DNA from: Clostridium sp. DL-VIII | GTDB lineage: Bacteria; Bacillota; Clostridia; Clostridiales; Clostridiaceae | Direction of reading: 5' to 3' | Assembly: GCF_000230835.1 (NCBI RefSeq) | Contig: NZ_CM001240.1 | Location: 1,248,501-1,312,500 of the forward strand | Length of the DNA: 64,000 bases | Shown here: positions 54,230-63,763 of the stretch, one piece after another | How positions within the stretch are numbered: position 1 is the first letter of the stretch | Layout of the letters: each line of letters starts with the position of its first letter | Notes under the pieces: model-generated | The model's database searches: none | The model's input: the letters and a program-made list of their open reading frames with translations, nothing else | What the model was told of the DNA's origin: nothing | Position numbers and translations under genes: made by a program

Positions 54230-54916
54230 ATGAATTCATTAACAAGAGGACAAATTACTATTTTAGTAGTGGATGACGAAAAAAGTATAGTTGATTTTAT
54301 TAAAATGGGTTTAGAAGCAGAGGGGTATGATGTATACTCTGCATTTGATGGAAATGAAGCGATTGAATTAGCTCAAAAAATTAATCCACATATAGTTATA
54401 TTAGATATTATGCTGCCAGGAATGAATGGATATGAAGTGTGTTCCAGAATTAAAAAATATATTAGAGCATCAATAATTATGCTTACAGCAAGGGATGATG
54501 TTGATGATAAAGTTAGAGGTTTAGATATTGGAGCGGATGATTACATGGCAAAACCGTTTAGTTTTAAAGAACTCTTAGCGCGAATTAATGCAAGAATAAG
54601 GAATAGTTTTCCAGAATTAAATAATATTCAGCAGCTAGGTAATTTTGTGATAGATGATAGAGCACATGAAATTACATATAATGGTAAAGTATTAGATTTA
54701 CCACCAACTCAATATAATTTATTAAGATTTTTAGTTGTAAATAATGGAATGGCATTAAGTAAATCTTTAATTCTTGAGAAAGTTTGGGGATATGATTTTA
54801 ATGGTGAAGAAAATATTGTTGAGGTTTATATAAGATACTTACGAGATAAAATTGATGATAAGGAACATAGTATTATTAGAACTGTTCGTGGTGTTGGTTA
54901 TAAAGTGGTGATATAA
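54230..54916 (+). CDS. OmpR/PhoB-family response regulator
   Basis: A 228-aa regulator. The receiver domain (about 10-122) has VVDDEK, phosphoacceptor Asp in HIVILDIMLPGMNG, and MAKPFSFKEL. The winged-helix domain (about 130-228) has PPTQYNLLRFLV and IRTVRGVGYKVV. ATG 54230 follows AAGGGAAGG; a GTG 39 bases upstream lacks an RBS. It shares the TAATG stop-start overlap with the kinase gene. The 11-bp direct repeats at 56561 and 57797 are of the kind bound by this family, so they are its best candidate targets. Confidence 0.95.
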   Translation: MNSLTRGQITILVVDDEKSIVDFIKMGLEAEGYDVYSAFDGNEAIELAQKINPHIVILDIMLPGMNGYEVCSRIKKYIRASIIMLTARDDVDDKVRGLDIGADDYMAKPFSFKELLARINARIRNSFPELNNIQQLGNFVIDDRAHEITYNGKVLDLPPTQYNLLRFLVVNNGMALSKSLILEKVWGYDFNGEENIVEVYIRYLRDKIDDKEHSIIRTVRGVGYKVVI

Positions 54917-56451
54917 TGAAAAACTTAAAAAGTAAATTTAAAATAAAGAGTCTCAAATGGCAGTTGTTGTTTCGTTTTTTCGTAATATTAATAATTCTAT
55001 TGATTGCAATGGGAATTTTTCAATACATAGATATGGAGCATTACTTTTATGAAACTAAAAGACAAGTATTACAGCAAAGGTTTCATAGTCTGGATTTTAT
55101 TGATGTGGTATCTAAAGAAGATGTTGATACTATGGATGAAAAAGATGCCATGCAACTTTTAAACAATTTAGCAAGTAAAAATATGAGAACTGCATTAATT
55201 AATAAAAATGGGGAAGTGTTATTTAATAATGCAGAGGGATTAATACTAAAAGATGATAATGATGGGGATGATGATTCTAAGGATATAAAAGAAAAGAAAA
55301 AACCAGAGGTACAAGTTCCAGTATTATCAAAAGATCAATATATAGATATCTGTAATCAGTCAGGGAATTTAGAACATGTATATAAAATTGTAGAAGACAA
55401 AAATAATAATTGTCAAATGGTTGCATGGATAAAAGTTGGAAACATATCTTCTCCATCTGGATTGATACAAATAAGCACACCTATAGATGATATTAATGAA
55501 ATTTTGGCTAGACAGTTTTATACCCATGCAGGTCTTTCAATTTTGATTCTTATAATAGGTACAATACTTGGAACCACAATTTTTAATAAAACATTAAAGC
55601 CCTTATATGACATAACAGATACAGTTGAAGGAATAGGAATAACTGATTTGAATAAGAGGCTTAAAGAAGGAAATGGACAATTAGAAATAGATAGGCTGGC
55701 TAAATCCTTTAACATTATGTTTGCGAGAATAGAAGAATCTTTTGATAAGGAACAGGAAATTAAAGAAAAAATGAGACACTTTGTATCAGACGCTTCACAT
55801 GAATTAAGAACACCATTAACTTCAATTCATGGATTTGTTGAGGTTTTATTAAGAGGGGCAGCTAGAAGTAAGGAACAGTTAGATTTAGCTTTAAATAGCA
55901 TATTGATAGAAAGTGAGAGGCTCACAAAACTTGTAAATGATCTTTTGATTTTAACTAGATTAGATGGGAAGCCAGTTGTAGAAACTAAAAAAGAAGATAT
56001 TAACGAATTAGTGCAGGAAGTTGAACCTCAGCTTAAAATACTTTGTAAGAATAGGTCATTGCAGCTTAAACTTAAGGATAATATACAGGCAATTATAAAC
56101 AAGGATCAAATGAAGCAGGTTATATTTAATTTAACTCAAAATGCTGTACTTCATACAGATAATGATAATGGAATTATAACCATAGCGACAGATTTCGAAA
56201 GTATAAATGGTGAAAACTTTGCAGTCATAAAAGTAACAGATAATGGAACTGGAATATCTGAAAAAGATATTACTAAGATATATGACAGATTCTTTAGAAG
56301 TGAAAGTCATAGATCAAGAGAGCAGGGAGGATATGGCTTAGGACTTTCAATAGTTAAAGCCATAGTAGATAGTAATAGAGGAAAAATTGAAGTTAAAAGT
56401 AAGATAAATGTTGGTACAACATTTACGGTATACATGAGAATAAAAGATTAA
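54916..56451 (+). CDS. Sensor histidine kinase (HisKA type)
   Basis: A 511-aa membrane kinase. TM1 is about 18-40, an extracellular loop of about 155 residues contains an acidic DDNDGDDDSKD stretch, TM2 is about 205-224, then HAMP. The HisKA motif FVSDASHELRTPLTSIHGFV carries the phosphoacceptor His, followed by HATPase boxes NLTQNAVLHTD, DNGTGIS and GGYGLGLSIVKAI. The acidic loop could bind cations, a guess. It overlaps the response regulator gene by one base and heads toward the apbE gene. Confidence 0.94.
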   Translation: MKNLKSKFKIKSLKWQLLFRFFVILIILLIAMGIFQYIDMEHYFYETKRQVLQQRFHSLDFIDVVSKEDVDTMDEKDAMQLLNNLASKNMRTALINKNGEVLFNNAEGLILKDDNDGDDDSKDIKEKKKPEVQVPVLSKDQYIDICNQSGNLEHVYKIVEDKNNNCQMVAWIKVGNISSPSGLIQISTPIDDINEILARQFYTHAGLSILILIIGTILGTTIFNKTLKPLYDITDTVEGIGITDLNKRLKEGNGQLEIDRLAKSFNIMFARIEESFDKEQEIKEKMRHFVSDASHELRTPLTSIHGFVEVLLRGAARSKEQLDLALNSILIESERLTKLVNDLLILTRLDGKPVVETKKEDINELVQEVEPQLKILCKNRSLQLKLKDNIQAIINKDQMKQVIFNLTQNAVLHTDNDNGIITIATDFESINGENFAVIKVTDNGTGISEKDITKIYDRFFRSESHRSREQGGYGLGLSIVKAIVDSNRGKIEVKSKINVGTTFTVYMRIKD

Positions 56452-56560: not shown

Positions 56561-56615
56561 TCTCAGTAAATTCTAAGCTTATGCTAAGAATAAACTAAGG
56601 CCTAAGTGTTATGAT
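56561..56615 (+). promoter_or_regulatory. Four 11-bp direct repeats and -10 upstream of apbE
   Basis: TCTCAG (56561), TCTAAG (56572), GCTAAG (56583) and ACTAAG (56594) repeat at exactly 11 bp. TATGAT (56610-56615) follows 16 bp from the start of the last repeat. No separate -35 is seen; the repeats occupy its place, as in activator-dependent promoters. The same layout recurs at 57797. Confidence 0.7.
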
Positions 56616-56649
56616 TTGGTTATTATAAAATTAATAGTGTGTTTGGTAG

Positions 56650-57702
56650 GTGAGTATTATAAATATTTTATTAGCAATATGTGCAATAGTTATTATTTTT
56701 CTTTTAATTAGTAAGTTTATTAATAAATATAATAGGAGTAAGGAAATGCGTGAATCGGCTAGAAGCGGTTATGTTCTTGGAACGTTAATTAATTTGAGAG
56801 CATATGGAAATGCGCCGGAAGCTGCAATTGATGAAGCCTTTGAAAAGTTAAATGATATTGATGATAAAATGTCCGCATTTAAAGAAAATAGTGAAATATC
56901 AAAAATAAATTTTGGTTCTGGAACAAATGCTGAGACTGTAAGCGGTGATACATATTTCGTGGTTAAAAAATCTATAGAGTACAGTAAAATTTTAGAAGGA
57001 ACCTTTGATCCTACAATAAGACCTTTAGTGAAATTGTGGGGGATAGGTACAAAGGAGGAAAGAATTCCACAAAGGTCTGAAATAGACAAGGTATTAAAGC
57101 TTGTAAATTATAATGATGTTATTTTGGAGGAAAGTAACTCTTCAATAAAGTTAAGACAAGAGAAGCAGGCCTTAGATGTTGGAGGTATAGCAAAAGGTTT
57201 TGCTGCTGACAAAGTTAGGGATATTTTTATAAAGAATAATATTAAAAGTGCATTAATTGATTTAGGTGGAAATATTTTTGCATTAGGTAATAAGCAGGAT
57301 AATACATCTTGGAAGGTTGGAATTCAAAATCCTTTTAAACCTAGAGGGGAATTCATAGGTATTCTAAGTGTTAAGGATAAGTCAATTGTTACTTCAGGAA
57401 ATTATGAAAGATATTTTGTAGAAGGTGGAAAAAGGTTTCATCATATAATGGATCCTAGAACAGGATATCCATCAGAAAGTGAAATTATAAGTGCAACGAT
57501 TATATCAGATAATTCAATAGATGGCGATGGGTTATCAACAGGAATCTATATTCTTGGAGTAGAAAAGTCCTTAAGGATTATAGAGTCAATTGAGGGTGTT
57601 GAAGCAATATTAGTTACAGAAGATAAAAAGGTATATACCACATCAAGCATTAATGAAATTTTTATAGTAACAGATGAAGAATTTACCTCAGAAAATAAAT
57701 AA
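56650..57702 (+). CDS. apbE: FAD:protein FMN transferase, ApbE family
   Basis: A 350-aa enzyme that transfers FMN from FAD to a Thr of target flavoproteins outside the membrane. An N-terminal hydrophobic helix (about 4-22) would anchor it. LDVGGIAKGFAADKV, ALIDLGGNIFALG and HHIMDPRTGYPSESE are the FAD/Mg-binding signatures. The start is GTG 56650 (keeps the membrane helix, weak RBS); ATG 56746 has a much better AGGAG but would remove it. The likely substrate is the FMN-binding polyferredoxin encoded next. A terminator follows. Confidence 0.9.
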   Translation: MSIINILLAICAIVIIFLLISKFINKYNRSKEMRESARSGYVLGTLINLRAYGNAPEAAIDEAFEKLNDIDDKMSAFKENSEISKINFGSGTNAETVSGDTYFVVKKSIEYSKILEGTFDPTIRPLVKLWGIGTKEERIPQRSEIDKVLKLVNYNDVILEESNSSIKLRQEKQALDVGGIAKGFAADKVRDIFIKNNIKSALIDLGGNIFALGNKQDNTSWKVGIQNPFKPRGEFIGILSVKDKSIVTSGNYERYFVEGGKRFHHIMDPRTGYPSESEIISATIISDNSIDGDGLSTGIYILGVEKSLRIIESIEGVEAILVTEDKKVYTTSSINEIFIVTDEEFTSENK

Positions 57703-57715
57703 GATACAATAGCGG

Positions 57716-57752
57716 AATAATAGGCAATCATAAGACTGTCTATTATTTTTTG
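57716..57752 (+). terminator. Terminator after apbE
   Basis: AATAATAGGCA (57716-57726) pairs with TGTCTATTATT (57737-57747) with one wobble, followed by a T-run to 57752. Confidence 0.8.
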
Positions 57753-57796
57753 GTTTTATAAGTGTAATTCTCTATTAATTTCACATTTTTAGCTAT

Positions 57797-57851
57797 TCTC
57801 AGCAAATTCTAAGCTTACACTAAGGTTGTCTTAAGGTTTAATTGTTATAAT
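57797..57851 (+). promoter_or_regulatory. Four 11-bp direct repeats and -10 upstream of the polyferredoxin gene
   Basis: TCTCAG (57797), TCTAAG (57808), ACTAAG (57819) and CTTAAG (57830) repeat at 11 bp, with TATAAT at 57846-57851, 16 bp from the start of the last repeat. This equals the geometry at 56561-56615. Confidence 0.7.
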
Positions 57852-58036: not shown

Positions 58037-59221
58037 ATGGCTAAAAAAATAAAGAAATCACAGGTCTTAAGGCATGCTGTACAAATAATTATGTTTTTTA
58101 TAATGCCTGGACTTTATTCCATGACATTTAGTGAAATAAAAACAGTGTACAAAATGATTATAGAAGGTAATTTTAATTTCATTCAAGCATTTCCAAGCTT
58201 AATAGAATTCACAGCTGTGATGCTTATAACAATACTAATGGGAAGATGGTTTTGCGGATGGGTATGTACTTTTGGAGCATATAATGATTTTGTATATGCT
58301 ATATCTAAAAAAATATTCAAAGGAAAATTTAAAATAAGCGAAGAAATTGATTCAATATTAAAATATACAAAGTATGTGATATTACTGCTTATAATAATTA
58401 TTTCATGGACATTAGGAAGTAATATTTTACAAAGTACAAGTCCTTGGGATGTGTTTGGACAAATGTCTGATGTATCTGGTATATTTAATAACTTATTTAT
58501 AGGTTTAGTGCTTTTGATTTTAATTACAATAGGAGCAGCGTTTATTGAAAGATTTTTTTGTAGATATTTGTGTCCATTAGGTGCAGTATTTTCTATAATT
58601 TCCAAAATTGGAATAGTAAAAATTAATAAACCTAAAACTGATTGTGGAAAGTGCAGAGCTTGTACTATGAATTGTTCTATGGGATTAAAGCTTTATAAAG
58701 TGGATGGTGCTAAAGGTGGTGACTGTATCAATTGCTTAAAGTGTACAGAAATATGCCCTAGAGGAAATGCAAATATAAATATTCTTGGACAAGATGTAAA
58801 TAAAAATTTAGCAGGGTCTGTAGCATTAGCAGCAATGATTGGAACATATGGATTAAGTAATTTTAGTGCAGATGCTTTAACTAAGGCAGGTGTAATATCA
58901 AGTGGAACTTCAAATGAGGTTTCTCAAGGTTCTGTTTCCAATAGTTCTGTACAATATAAAGATGGAACATATACAGGAAACGGACAAGGATTTAGAGGAG
59001 GGACAACTAAAATTTCTGTAACAATAGCAGGTGGAAAAATAACAGATATAACAACATTATCTGATAAAGATACTTCTAATTATTATAATAGGGCCTTTGG
59101 AACTATATCTAAGGGAATAATTTCAAAACAGACAGCTCAGGTTGATACAGTTTCTGGTGCTACTTATAGTTCAAAAGGAATCATGAGTGCTGTAGCTGAT
59201 GCTTTAAGTCAGGCAAAATAA
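58037..59221 (+). CDS. Membrane polyferredoxin with FMN-binding domain (NapH/NosR/RnfG-like)
   Basis: A 394-aa membrane electron carrier. Residues 1-190 hold about five transmembrane helices with the paired motifs RWFCGWVCTFGA and RFFCRYLCPLGA. Two 4Fe-4S motifs, CGKCRACTMNC and CINCLKCTEICP, lie near 203-245. The C-terminal FMN-binding domain (about 310-394) has VSGATYSSKG, the flavinylation site for ApbE, on the outer face. AGAAGGAG precedes the ATG. It suits flavin-based electron transfer across the membrane, for example to an external acceptor; its partner enzymes are not in the window. Confidence 0.9.
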   Translation: MAKKIKKSQVLRHAVQIIMFFIMPGLYSMTFSEIKTVYKMIIEGNFNFIQAFPSLIEFTAVMLITILMGRWFCGWVCTFGAYNDFVYAISKKIFKGKFKISEEIDSILKYTKYVILLLIIIISWTLGSNILQSTSPWDVFGQMSDVSGIFNNLFIGLVLLILITIGAAFIERFFCRYLCPLGAVFSIISKIGIVKINKPKTDCGKCRACTMNCSMGLKLYKVDGAKGGDCINCLKCTEICPRGNANINILGQDVNKNLAGSVALAAMIGTYGLSNFSADALTKAGVISSGTSNEVSQGSVSNSSVQYKDGTYTGNGQGFRGGTTKISVTIAGGKITDITTLSDKDTSNYYNRAFGTISKGIISKQTAQVDTVSGATYSSKGIMSAVADALSQAK

Positions 59222-59640: not shown

Positions 59641-59734
59641 TGTTGTTTATAATTTATCACTAAAAATATTGCTTGACGTTTTAAGGTTAATGGTATAATG
59701 TTTAAATTGTAAAAGATAATTTTATAATTGAATA

Positions 59735-59824
59735 ACTAGGGGAGCTAATATTTTAGCTGAGATTGGAAAAATTGATTTCCTAGACTCTTATAACCTGATT
59801 TGGTTAGTACCAACGTAGGGAAGT
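59735..59824 (+). promoter_or_regulatory. TPP riboswitch (THI element)
   Basis: The conserved blocks are visible in order: GGGGAGC, TTAGCTGAGATTG, GACTCTTATAACCTGATTTG, GTTAGTACCAACGTAGGGAA. This is a thiamine-pyrophosphate aptamer. A candidate promoter (TTGACG at 59673, TATAAT at 59694, a short 15-bp spacer) lies upstream, and a terminator with T8 downstream, so control is by transcription termination when TPP is bound. Confidence 0.95.
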
Positions 59825-59855
59825 ATATTAATATTTTTGTGTGCATATGGTTGTT

Positions 59856-59969: not shown

Positions 59970-60503
59970 ATGAAGGAAAGAAGTAAAGCGCAGAAAATTG
60001 CATTAAGTGGGGTGTTAATTGGGATTTCTGTGATATTTGGAACATTTTCTGTACCAATTGGAGCGGCCAAGATATCTCCGGTGCAGCACTTTGTAAATGT
60101 AGTTGGTGCAATAACCCTTGGCCCAGTGTATGCTCTTGCAAATGCATTTATTACATCACTTATAAGAAATATTATGGGAACAGGAAGTTTATTGGCGTTT
60201 CCAGGAAGCATGGTGGGTGCGTTTCTTGCAGGTATTCTTTATAAGAAATTTAGAAAACCAAGTATAGCTGTACTTGGAGAAATAATTGGTACAGGAATAT
60301 TAGGAGCATTATTAGCTTATCCAGTGACAGAAATTATTTTGGGTAAGAATGTTGCAGTATTTGTCTATGTAATACCATTTATATCAAGCTGCACAGTTGG
60401 AGCAATAATAGCATATTTCTTTGTAAATATTCCTGTTATAAAGAAAATGTTAATAGAGAATGAGTCACCAATAGATGAAAAACATAGTACTAATCAAATT
60501 TAA
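59970..60503 (+). CDS. thiW: ThiW, S-component of an ECF transporter for a thiamine precursor
   Basis: A 177-aa membrane protein with about five helices that supplies substrate specificity to an ECF transporter; the predicted substrate in the literature is the thiazole moiety (hydroxyethylthiazole). The ALSGVLIGISVIFGTFSVPI and PVQHFVNVVGAITLGPVYAL segments are typical. AGGAGGT precedes the ATG. First gene after the TPP riboswitch. The shared energising module (EcfAA'T) is not in the window. Thiazole uptake matches the downstream thiM. Confidence 0.88.
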   Translation: MKERSKAQKIALSGVLIGISVIFGTFSVPIGAAKISPVQHFVNVVGAITLGPVYALANAFITSLIRNIMGTGSLLAFPGSMVGAFLAGILYKKFRKPSIAVLGEIIGTGILGALLAYPVTEIILGKNVAVFVYVIPFISSCTVGAIIAYFFVNIPVIKKMLIENESPIDEKHSTNQI

Positions 60504-60519
60504 ATGAAAGGATGATTTT

Positions 60520-61320
60520 ATGTTTAGAGCATTAACTATTGCAGGATCAGATACTTGTGGAGGAGCGGGAATTCAAGCGGATTTAAAATCTTTTTCTGCA
60601 AATGGAGTTTATGGAATGAGCGTTATCACGGCTGTAACAGCTCAAAATACCATGGGGGTTTTTGGAATTCAAGATATAAATCCAGAAATGATAGAATCAC
60701 AAATAGATGTTATTTTTGATGATATTAGGGTTGATGCAATAAAAATAGGTATGGTTTCTAAAATTGAATCAATAAAAGCTATAGCTAAAGCTTTAAAAAA
60801 GGTTGAAAAACTACCAGTAATAGTTTTAGATCCTGTTATGATTTCAAAAAGCGGTTTTAATTTATTATCAAAAGATGCTAAGGATACCTTAGTTAAGGAA
60901 TTATTTCCTTTAGCAACACTAATTACTCCTAATCTACCTGAAGCTGAAGAAATTTTAGGTATAGAAATAAGCAATTTAGAAGAAATGAAGGAAGCAGCTT
61001 TAAAACTTAAGGAACTTGGACCAAAGGCTGTTTTAGTTAAAGGCGGACATTTAGAAGAGGATGCAACAGACTTACTATTTGATGGAAAGAACTTTATGTT
61101 TTTACCGCAAGAAAGAATAAATACAAAGCATACTCATGGAACTGGCTGCACTTTATCATCTGCTATTGCAGCAAATTTAGCAAAGAATATGAGTATTGAT
61201 GAAGCTGTTAAAGAAGGAAAGAGATATATAACAGTTGCAATTGAGCATGGTTTTGAGCTTGGTAAAGGTGTAGGACCTACTAATCATTTTTATGAACTCT
61301 ACAAAAAAGCAAATATTTAA
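60520..61320 (+). CDS. thiD: Hydroxymethylpyrimidine/phosphomethylpyrimidine kinase
   Basis: A 266-aa ribokinase-like enzyme that phosphorylates HMP and HMP-P. LTIAGSDTCGGAGIQADLK is the substrate region, DPVMISKSG and LITPNLPEAEEILG follow, and the anion-hole/catalytic motif is HTHGTGCTLSSAIAANLAK. AAAGGATG precedes the ATG 16 bases after thiW. It processes ThiC product for joining by ThiE. Confidence 0.96.
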   Translation: MFRALTIAGSDTCGGAGIQADLKSFSANGVYGMSVITAVTAQNTMGVFGIQDINPEMIESQIDVIFDDIRVDAIKIGMVSKIESIKAIAKALKKVEKLPVIVLDPVMISKSGFNLLSKDAKDTLVKELFPLATLITPNLPEAEEILGIEISNLEEMKEAALKLKELGPKAVLVKGGHLEEDATDLLFDGKNFMFLPQERINTKHTHGTGCTLSSAIAANLAKNMSIDEAVKEGKRYITVAIEHGFELGKGVGPTNHFYELYKKANI

Positions 61321-61478
61321 ATTAGCTAAGGGTTAAGAAGTAAGAGTTAACTAGCAATAAGATACAATCTTTACAGAATTCTAAAGAAATAGTGGTTTAA
61401 AAGTTATGTACTAGAATTAAAAAATTGTAAATTTAAAATTTTGTTATATAAAAAATGTGATAAAGGAGAGAAAATAAA

Positions 61479-62789
61479 ATGAATTATAAAACTCAAATGG
61501 AAGCAGCAAGAAAAGGTATAGTTACTAAAGAAATGAAGGTAGTAGCTGAGAAAGAAAAAATTTCAGAAGAAAAATTAATTAAGCTTATAGCAGAGGGTAA
61601 AATAGTTATTCCAGCAAATATTAATCATAAATCACTTAGCCCAGAAGGAATCGGTGATGGACTAAGAACAAAAATAAATGTTAACTTAGGCATATCTGGA
61701 GACTCAGTGGATTATTGCAGAGAAATGGAAAAAGTAAAAATGGCAATAGACTTTGGTGCTGAAGCTATAATGGATTTAAGTAATTATGGAAAGACTCAAG
61801 AATTTAGAGAAAAACTTATTGAATATTCTCCTGCTATGATAGGAACAGTTCCAATGTATGATGCAATTGGATATCTTGAAAAGGATCTTTTAAACATAAA
61901 AGCAGAGGATTTTCTTGAAGTAGTTAGAGCTCATGCGAAGGCTGGAGTTGACTTTGTTACTATTCATGCAGGTATAAATAAGAGAACAGTTTCAATATTT
62001 AAAGAAGATAAGAGAAAGATGAACATAGTATCTCGTGGAGGATCTTTATTATTTGCCTGGATGGAGATGACAGGAAATGAAAATCCATTTTATGAGCATT
62101 ATGATGAATTGCTTGAAATTCTTAGAGAGTATGATGTTACAATAAGTCTTGGCGATGCTATGAGACCAGGCTGCCTTGATGATTCAACTGATGCAGGACA
62201 AGTTACAGAACTTATAGAATTAGGGTTATTAACAAAGAGAGCTTGGGAAAAAGATGTTCAAGTTATGATTGAAGGACCTGGACATATGGCTATAAATGAA
62301 ATAGCAGCAAACATGCAGATTGAAAAGAGATTATGTCATGGAGCACCATTCTATGTACTTGGACCACTTGTTACTGATATTGCCCCAGGATATGACCATA
62401 TTACTTCAGCAATTGGTGGAGCTATTGCAGCAACTAATGGAGCAAACTTCTTGTGTTATGTAACACCTGCTGAACATTTAAGACTTCCAGATTTATCAGA
62501 TGTTAAGGAAGGAATCATTGCTTCAAAGATTGCAGCTCATGCAGCAGATATAGCTAATGGACTTCCAGGAGCAAGAGATAGAGATAATGCAATGGCAGAT
62601 GCTCGTCAAAAATTAGATTGGGAAGAGATGTTCAAGGTTGCCATAGATGGAAAGAAGGCAAGAGAATATTTTGAAAGCATACCACCAGAAGACAAACATA
62701 GCTGCTCAATGTGTGGAAAAATGTGTGCAGTAAGAACAACTAATAAAATTTTAAATGGTGAAAAAGTAGAACTTTTTGATCAAAAATAA
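61479..62789 (+). CDS. thiC: Phosphomethylpyrimidine synthase
   Basis: A 436-aa radical-SAM enzyme that rearranges AIR into HMP phosphate. The C-terminal [11 protein letters not shown] gives the CX2CX4C cluster motif. [44 protein letters not shown] and YHIT-like [10 protein letters not shown] are conserved. AAAGGAG precedes the ATG. A 158-base gap with no clear terminator separates it from thiD. De novo pyrimidine synthesis is therefore present. Confidence 0.97.
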
Positions 62790-62935
62790 ATTTGGAGTAT
62801 ATAATCATGGCATATTTGAACTTGATATTTTCATTCATGTGTCTTATATGATGGAAAAAAGGATTGCTTAAAGGAGGGAGGTTAGTAAGAATTTTGATAT
62901 TACTATTATTAAAGATAAATTCTTACTGAAGTTTT
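62790..62935. other. thiC-thiM gap with family A half-site and unused strong RBS
   Basis: AACTTGATATTTTCATTCAT (from 62838) and GTGTCTTA resemble one family A end. AAGGAGGGAGG at 62871-62881 is a strong ribosome-binding sequence without an ATG at proper distance. A TTG at 62894 starts an 11-codon frame that stops at 62929, six bases before and in frame with thiM. Confidence 0.35.
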
Positions 62936-63763
62936 ATGGAGAATAAATTAGTTTTAGAGATTGGGAAGTTATTAGATGAGGTTAGGAATAACAAACCTCT
63001 TGTGCATAACATAACTAATTATGTGACAGTAAATGATTGTGCTAATATTTTGCTTGCATTAGGAGCATCACCAATTATGGCAGATGATATTAAAGAAGCA
63101 GCAGATATTACTAAAATTTCATCTGCACTTGTAATAAATATTGGTACATTAAACGAAAGAACTATTGAATCAATGATTGCATCAGGAAAAAAGGCAAATG
63201 AATTAAACATACCAGTTGTTTTTGACCCAGTAGGTGCAGGGGCATCAGAATTTAGAAATGCTACCACTAAGAGAATAATAGATGAAGTTAAAATAAGTGT
63301 TTTACGTGGAAATATGTCTGAAGTAAAATTTATAGCAGGTTTACAAGCAACTACAAAAGGTGTTGATGCTTCAGAAGCTGATACAAAAGGTGGAAGTGAT
63401 GAAGGCATTAATGTAGCTAAAAATTTAGCTGATAGACTTAATTGTACTGTAGCTATTACAGGTGTAATAGACATTATATCTGACGGGGAAAGAGTAGCTA
63501 TACTTGAAAATGGAACAAAAATGTTATCAAATGTAACAGGAACTGGCTGCATGACAAGTGCATTAGTTGGAGCATATTGTGGTGCAGGTTCAGATTATTT
63601 CATTGCAGCTATTTCAGGAATTATTTCAATGGGAATTGCAGGAGAAATTGCATTTGAAAAGGCAGGGAATATTGGAACAGGTAGTTTTCATATTTCCATT
63701 ATAGATGCGATAAGTAATTTAAATTCTGAAATAATTAAAAAAATGGCTAAAATTAAAGAATAA
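62936..63763 (+). CDS. thiM: Hydroxyethylthiazole kinase
   Basis: A 275-aa kinase that salvages hydroxyethylthiazole. PLVHNITNYVTVNDCANILLA, FDPVGAGASEFR, RGNMSEVKFI and the catalytic GTGCMTSALVGAYCG are intact. ATG 62936 matches the family N-terminus but has a weak RBS. The stronger RBS at 62871 leads into a short in-frame leader frame, so coupling is possible. Complements ThiW import. Confidence 0.96.
   Translation: MENKLVLEIGKLLDEVRNNKPLVHNITNYVTVNDCANILLALGASPIMADDIKEAADITKISSALVINIGTLNERTIESMIASGKKANELNIPVVFDPVGAGASEFRNATTKRIIDEVKISVLRGNMSEVKFIAGLQATTKGVDASEADTKGGSDEGINVAKNLADRLNCTVAITGVIDIISDGERVAILENGTKMLSNVTGTGCMTSALVGAYCGAGSDYFIAAISGIISMGIAGEIAFEKAGNIGTGSFHISIIDAISNLNSEIIKKMAKIKE

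Follow-up and report, generated by a model that had tools for sequence, protein, structure and literature searches.

Which regulator controls apbE and the membrane polyferredoxin gene beside it in Clostridium sp. DL-VIII, and is it dedicated to them? We approached this question from one stretch of 64,000 nucleotides (the window), in which genes for a response regulator (RR, 54230), a kinase (54916), apbE (56650) and the polyferredoxin (58037) follow one another according to Pfam. The polyferredoxin gene is called nosR throughout. From the comparisons below we consider it very likely that the neighbouring two-component RR reads the repeat boxes in front of apbE and nosR, activates both genes and is dedicated to electron transfer by flavinylated extracytosolic proteins.

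Two four-box promoters beside a two-component system

The argument concerns the following features of the window.

54230..54916, + strand: RR, response regulator with receiver and winged-helix DNA-binding domain (Pfam PF00072, PF00486)
54916..56451, + strand: sensor histidine kinase (Pfam HAMP, HisKA, HATPase), extracytoplasmic domain with an Asp-rich stretch
56561..56599, + strand: apbE promoter, four boxes at 56561-56566, 56572-56577, 56583-56588 and 56594-56599, 11-bp steps
56610..56615, + strand: apbE -10 TATGAT, extended by a preceding TGT, 10 nt from the end of box 4
56650..57702, + strand: apbE, FAD:protein FMN transferase (Pfam PF02424, E 1.4e-89), hydrophobic N-terminus
57714..57749, + strand: terminator-like hairpin 3' of apbE, RNA fold -13.1 kcal/mol, z -4.2, running into T
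57797..57835, + strand: nosR promoter, four boxes at 57797-57802, 57808-57813, 57819-57824 and 57830-57835, 11-bp steps
57846..57851, + strand: nosR -10 TATAAT, extended by a preceding TGT, 10 nt from the end of box 4
58037..59221, + strand: nosR, NapH/NosR-like membrane polyferredoxin with C-terminal FMN-binding domain (Pfam PF12801, PF04205)
59144..59164, + strand: putative flavinylation motif DTVSGAT of nosR, read from the sequence by the motif definition given in PMC12052999

A preliminary description of this DNA had placed an OmpR/PhoB-type regulator directly upstream of apbE, and both points hold: RR and the kinase (54230 and 54916) immediately precede apbE, and RR combines a receiver (PF00072, 102.1 bits) with Trans_reg_C (PF00486, 82 bits). 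The HisKA/HATPase kinase gene lies directly downstream of RR, and this gene position, found also in relatives, suggests that the two form a cognate pair.

The promoter architecture was confirmed as well. Each promoter has four boxes at steps of exactly 11 bp, namely TCTCAG, TCTAAG, GCTAAG and ACTAAG before apbE (from 56561, 56572, 56583 and 56594) and TCTCAG, TCTAAG, ACTAAG and CTTAAG before nosR (from 57797, 57808, 57819 and 57830). In both, the start of box 4 and the start of the -10 are 16 bp apart, and the consensus -35/-10 scan gave no paired promoter ending at either -10, as expected from the claimed absence of a -35. The dinucleotide TG stands one base 5' of each -10. Over their first 21 bases the apbE and nosR sites are identical but for one position, and the genus alignment shows that the conserved part exceeds the hexamers (TCTCAGYNAATTCTMAGYTTR).

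The T-tailed hairpin after apbE was found by RNA folding and had no match in the consensus terminator scan; it suggests that nosR is a separate transcription unit with its own promoter. The GTG taken as the apbE start (56650) falls within GGTAGGTGAG, a stretch that is likely to bind ribosomes, and translation may in fact begin at another codon. Further downstream, the window contains a TPP riboswitch at 59728-59838 on the + strand (RF00059, 77 bits), and the genes 3' of it (59970-63763) look thiamin-related by eye.

The nosR product matches the NapH/MauN subfamily model below its cut-off. The cluster contains a PF12801 membrane protein, a PF04205 FMN-binding domain and apbE (PF02424), the combination that defines a NapH-like flavinylated system; the systems treated in passages of PMC8238504 likewise have a Fer4_5 membrane protein, an FMN-binding domain and a nearby apbE. 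ApbE recognises D-x-x-[ST]-G-A-[ST], seven residues being sufficient and working best at a terminus, according to the part of PMC12052999 on this motif. In the nosR product, FMN would be bound covalently to the DxxSGAT threonine of DTVSGAT.

Distribution of the promoters and of the response regulator

Runs of at least three NYTMAG boxes occur in the 64-kb window, on both strands, only at the two promoters, and 200 Markov-1 sequences of window length gave 0.015 three-box runs per sequence and zero four-box runs. Across the 6.48-Mb genome the three-box pattern was again found only at these promoters (4 overlapping matches; 1 for the reversed-pattern control). The composite pattern TCTMAG-N5-TCTMAG-N6-YTMAG with at most one mismatch recovered only the two promoters among the matches listed. 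At up to two mismatches it gave 17 genome matches versus 8 for the control, and the two-mismatch matches beyond the two promoters, including L145 and L146, were left out of the analysis. The genome search, proposed in the preliminary description as a check, finds the box pattern confined to two promoters and not scattered at random; a chance origin of the boxes is excluded in the window and in the genome.

RR was identified in 15 of 68 genomes of the genus (E <= 1e-75; 73-100% identity) and nosR in 16 (E <= 1e-140), which are the 15 RR genomes and C. puniceum (G021). Boxes precede apbE in all 16 genomes with nosR, four boxes in 14 of them and three in G008 and G066, and 9 of the 16 have a boxed nosR promoter. 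These 25 promoters from 16 genomes align without gaps, each step from box to box being 11 bp; 15 of the 30 candidate genus loci had fewer than three boxes and were dropped. Box 1 (TCTCAG) and box 2 (TCTMAG) are present in 25/25 promoters, the base following box 1 giving TCTCAGC in 22/25 and TCTCAGT in 3/25. The G of the extended -10 is kept in 24/25, and the gap from box 4 to the -10 is 10 nt in all 25, while the bases in the spacers and those following the boxes differ between species. A weight matrix built from the 25 sites scores 38.6-84.1 on its own training sites, and the highest score that it gave in 12 Mb of Markov-1 sequence, read on one strand, was -23.6. A recurrent match, TTCCAGCWAATTCTAAGTTTA, seen in several genus genomes, was dropped, as the one locus inspected (L092) had a single box.

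Promoters of the boxed type were found in 15/15 RR genomes of the genus, inspected directly, versus 2/53 RR-less genomes (G021 and G004), which were surveyed by a 21-base pattern at up to two mismatches; the comparison is uneven, since this pattern misses the apbE site of G008 (three mismatches), and the 2/53 leaves out four pattern matches in the RR-less G005 and G014. The co-occurrence was assessed by a Fisher test, uncorrected for kinship.

In the family, 44 of 206 genomes, belonging to 13 of 46 genera, carry RR, and nosR is present in 66 of the 206, comprising 44/44 genomes with RR and 22/162 without (E <= 1e-70 for both proteins); RR was called absent on the basis of an initial screen in which no more than 14 candidates were scored in any genome. 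When the interval from 450 bp before to 90 bp past the apbE or nosR start was scanned automatically, a site (score >9) was detected in 41/44 RR genomes versus 4/22 RR-less nosR genomes; the cut of 9 was set after the scores had been seen, and random sequence reached at most 5.5 in 3 Mb. Site scores of RR and RR-less genomes differ with a Mann-Whitney p of 1.7e-8, uncorrected for kinship, and the family is one clade, so the counts are not independent. Outside the training set the distance to the -10 was 10 nt in 28/31 sites, partly by selection, since the -10 is itself part of the matrix, whose training sites all came from the genus. Among the 41 family pattern matches, those in the loci L206, L208, L215, L225 and L232 were dropped for lack of a matrix score above -2, and another five, located in G097 (one), G099 (three) and G145 (one), were left out.

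Of the three RR genomes missed by the scan, G094 was missed because its site (20.3) precedes a fragmentary apbE excluded by the length filter, G079 has one before an esterase gene adjoining RR and not before its apbE-nosR, and G088 has RR and apbE-nosR with no site found in the automatic scan. Fourteen further apbE/nosR loci in RR genomes (L153-L157, L261, L263-L270) had no site, the best score being -10.2. The RR-less matches were C. puniceum and G130, G124 and G132, the latter three scoring 17, 12 and 10 with weak boxes lacking TCTCAG.

The sites persist where RR is not a neighbour. In G012, RR lies 127 kb from apbE and the boxes are kept; outside the genus, sites are kept in G184 and G097, with RR about 20 kb and about 11 kb away, respectively, and in G093, G094, G096, G099 and G185 neither RR nor the kinase was found in the flanking DNA covered around a boxed apbE-nosR. 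The kinase adjoins the boxed apbE in G145 (L272) and G146 (L271), with L193 and L198 as the other loci concerned, and RR stands alone on another contig; this split pair ties kinase, RR and boxed apbE together. C. puniceum has lost RR and its kinase is cut to 56 aa, with good apbE boxes retained (score 70); another regulator may read them, or the loss may be recent. G004, without RR and nosR, carries a three-box promoter before an apparent apbE remnant and a 25-aa kinase match. We withdrew G065 as a case of RR distant from the boxes: its kinase and its boxes are each found at the end of a contig (L090, L091) and may be neighbours.

DNA recognition and competing readings

The closest solved relative of RR is PhoP of Mycobacterium tuberculosis (E 5e-57, 196.3 bits). 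Among 25 of the 103 NCBIfam models matched, for named regulators such as PhoB, MtrA, YycF and PmrA, RR was below the curated cut-off of every one. In Escherichia coli, PhoB activates pstS from tandem pho boxes, four 11-bp direct repeats that replace the -35 upstream of the -10. The promoters described here share the four 11-bp direct repeats in place of the -35, but differ in motif and regulon, and RR reaches 203.3 of the 296.2 bits demanded by the NCBIfam PhoB model. PmrA/BasR recognises CTTAAG repeats; a reading of this type, in which boxes 3 and 4 are taken as NYTAAG, was set aside, BasR scoring 113.8 bits versus 196.3 for M. tuberculosis PhoP.

According to the passages of PMC4832192 on DNA binding, M. 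tuberculosis PhoP reads TCACAGC repeats in tandem, the 7-bp motifs being separated by strictly 4 bp, binds four motifs in a row more tightly than two, and contacts bases through N212, V213, E215, S216, Y217 and Y220. At these six positions the recognition helix of RR has N, I, E, V, Y and Y in the alignment, four of six being identical. Both proteins have the OmpR/PhoB fold, and in both cases motif plus spacer gives 11-bp steps, four in a row. The differences are in box 1, which is TCTCAGC-N4 here and TCACAGC-N4 there, in two of the six base-reading side chains and in the candidate target genes. The likeness to PhoP together with the TCTCAGC boxes leads us to expect RR in tandem on all four boxes, the two nearest the -10 standing in for the -35.

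We infer binding, activation, phosphorylation dependence, flavinylation, acceptor and signal in the following scheme. The kinase of the two-component system (54230-56451) would sense an envelope signal, and the four 11-bp repeats would be filled by phosphorylated RR in tandem, probably as two dimers. Boxes 3 and 4 would cover the position of the missing -35, and RNA polymerase would be brought by RR to the extended -10 elements of both genes. ApbE would then attach FMN to the polyferredoxin, creating a flavin path that could conduct electrons through the membrane, plausibly with Fe(III) or some other external acceptor at its end. Promoters of this type may drive further redox genes in relatives.

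Regarding the kinase, its extracytoplasmic part contains an Asp-rich stretch, DDNDGDDDSKD (residues 113-123; window 55252-55284). By eye it is similar in most of 15 genus orthologues and missing in that form in G008 and G066. Metal or cation sensing through this stretch was considered and set aside, the stretch being short or missing in distant orthologues such as G159 and G161. A model of the sensor domain made from six sequences had a mean pLDDT of 61.5, too low for comparison with known folds.

The boxes could also be read by a different regulator of the OmpR/PhoB type, or by several overlapping ones, with the neighbouring RR mainly employed otherwise. Such regulators abound, as a first look found up to 107 RR-like stretches per genus genome, and the boxes that C. 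puniceum keeps without RR fit this reading. However, the sites track RR and not apbE/nosR as such, they are kept in RR genomes where RR is not adjacent, and TCTCAGC resembles the motif of the best solved relative of RR; we regard another regulator as unlikely. A shade less probable again is a repressor site, at which RR would block the promoters by covering the place of the -35. Boxes 3 and 4 do cover this place, but the scan listed no -35 that could be blocked, and the fixed 10-nt gap in 25/25 genus promoters is the layout of an activator that replaces the -35, as PhoB does at pstS.

The near identity of the first 21 bases might mean that the second promoter is a mere duplicate of the first, or a chance AT-rich similarity, without a role. 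We consider this highly improbable, as both promoter kinds are kept across species while the letters between and after their boxes vary, and the random maximum of -23.6 is far from the 38.6-84.1 of the training sites. Activation of apbE and nosR by the neighbouring RR is the reading that we follow below.

Candidate targets in relatives and flavin-based electron export

We found eleven sites outside apbE/nosR, all in relatives and none of these targets in the window's own genome. Eight of the eleven precede flavin-motif or redox genes and three precede genes without a clear redox role. We read the sites before further redox genes as a putative flavinylation regulon. The main candidates, with one site-less hydrogenase orthologue for comparison, are listed here.

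L084:4526-5119, L088:3598-4113 (- strand), L143:4852-5472 (- strand) and L150:1492-2067: DGVSGAT wall-type proteins
L082:3079-4071, - strand: [NiFe] hydrogenase small subunit of G023 (PF01058, PF14720)
L160:3593-4510: hydrogenase orthologue of C. puniceum, degenerate tag DAVSAAT
L234:3545-5414 (- strand), L235:4129-5984 (- strand) and L236:2401-4255: CDP-alcohol phosphatidyltransferase and ferric-reductase-like flavoprotein

The four genes of the first group (G012, G030 and, twice, G056) encode small proteins that combine a hydrophobic N-terminus with the motif DGVSGAT and with choline-binding repeats; the repeats were seen in the three of the four that were scanned, and these three had no match to the FMN-binding domain. 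A search of the 68 genomes with the first 47 residues returned just these four copies, and all four genes are preceded by a site.

The hydrogenase small subunit gene of G023 stands under a promoter with TCTCAG-type boxes, and its product has a C-terminal tail with DVVSGAT and DTVSGAT at residues 293 and 320, which looks like a natural Flavin-tag. The TAT_signal model gives 20.7 bits, below its cut-off of 22.7, and 24.5 for the C. puniceum orthologue. Among the best 120 of 517 small-subunit homologues, the tail motif is present in 4, one of them 97% identical. No site scoring above 8 was found around the orthologue in C. puniceum, a genome that lost RR, and the nearest subunit in the window's genome is 43% identical over residues 40-288 only.

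In G145, G146 and G162 a site (scores 19, 48 and 17) precedes a CDP-alcohol phosphatidyltransferase gene followed by one for a ferric-reductase-like FAD/NAD-binding membrane protein, and in G008 a site precedes the phosphatidyltransferase gene alone. No obvious relation is seen for two further genes, the G079 esterase gene that adjoins RR and, in G077, one that is Spo0E-like. Taken with these targets, the dedicated regulon proposed in the preliminary description is largely supported: only two promoters match in the genome, the boxes go with RR across genomes and stay where its gene is not adjacent, and relatives add redox genes beyond apbE and the polyferredoxin.

The bare seven-residue DxxSGAT motif of these proteins is that of the Flavin-tag, which the part of PMC12052999 on it presents as an engineered label, whereas here it occurs naturally, in the tail of a hydrogenase subunit and, in the wall proteins, close to the N-terminus. 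Proteins that are multi-flavinylated and have wall-binding domains (SLH, Rib, FIVAR, LysM) are described in PMC8238504 (eLife 2021), whose main text mentions 'two-component' once and 'histidine kinase', 'hydrogenase' and 'choline-binding' 0 times. In FMN_red proteins, mainly of Firmicutes, the C-terminus is extended and bears one or two flavinylation motifs (passages of PMC11334425, mSystems 2024), comparable to the bare ApbE motifs in the C-terminal extension of the G023 subunit. Their tags, however, belong to a flavin-binding fold encoded beside apbE, whereas here the carrier is a hydrogenase small subunit encoded away from apbE; the main text of PMC11334425 mentions 'hydrogenase' 0 times.

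Regarding the signal, apbE and nosR of C. saccharoperbutylacetonicum RS-1 are up during reduction of Fe(III) plaque, and the ApbE-NosR module is conserved in iron-reducing Clostridium (passages of PMC13134045). The main text names no regulator, with 0 mentions of 'two-component', 'response regulator' and 'histidine kinase', and its passages leave open which RS-1 apbE-nosR copy responded; G023, if it is C. saccharoperbutylacetonicum, also has a copy without boxes (L153). The RS-1 expression, from this one paper, fits Fe(III) or a linked redox state as the cue and does not prove it.

In the literature searched, with most subscription papers and supplements outside reach, we found no earlier description of the regulon or of a flavinylation-tagged hydrogenase. 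We see the novelty in the putative regulon, the tagged hydrogenase and the single-tag wall proteins; the repeat architecture was already known.

We propose, tentatively and at somewhat below even confidence, that a widespread regulator of Clostridiaceae runs cell-envelope flavinylation as one programme, including natural Flavin-tags on hydrogenase and wall proteins. If so, the two C-terminal tags of the putatively Tat-exported [NiFe] hydrogenase small subunit would pass electrons from H2 to flavin, replacing a cytochrome, and the choline-repeat proteins would anchor single flavins in the cell wall, as relays on the way to external acceptors, Fe(III) for example. Hydrogenase and wall proteins with putative natural tags would be missed by apbE-centred searches because they are located elsewhere in the genome. 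For Fe(III) reduction by Clostridium, the ApbE-NosR module is a candidate, for which the main text of PMC13134045 names no regulator. The control of flavin-based electron exporters in anaerobic Gram-positive bacteria is little known, and a regulator with a sharp, searchable DNA address would offer a way to list the parts of flavin electron-export pathways.
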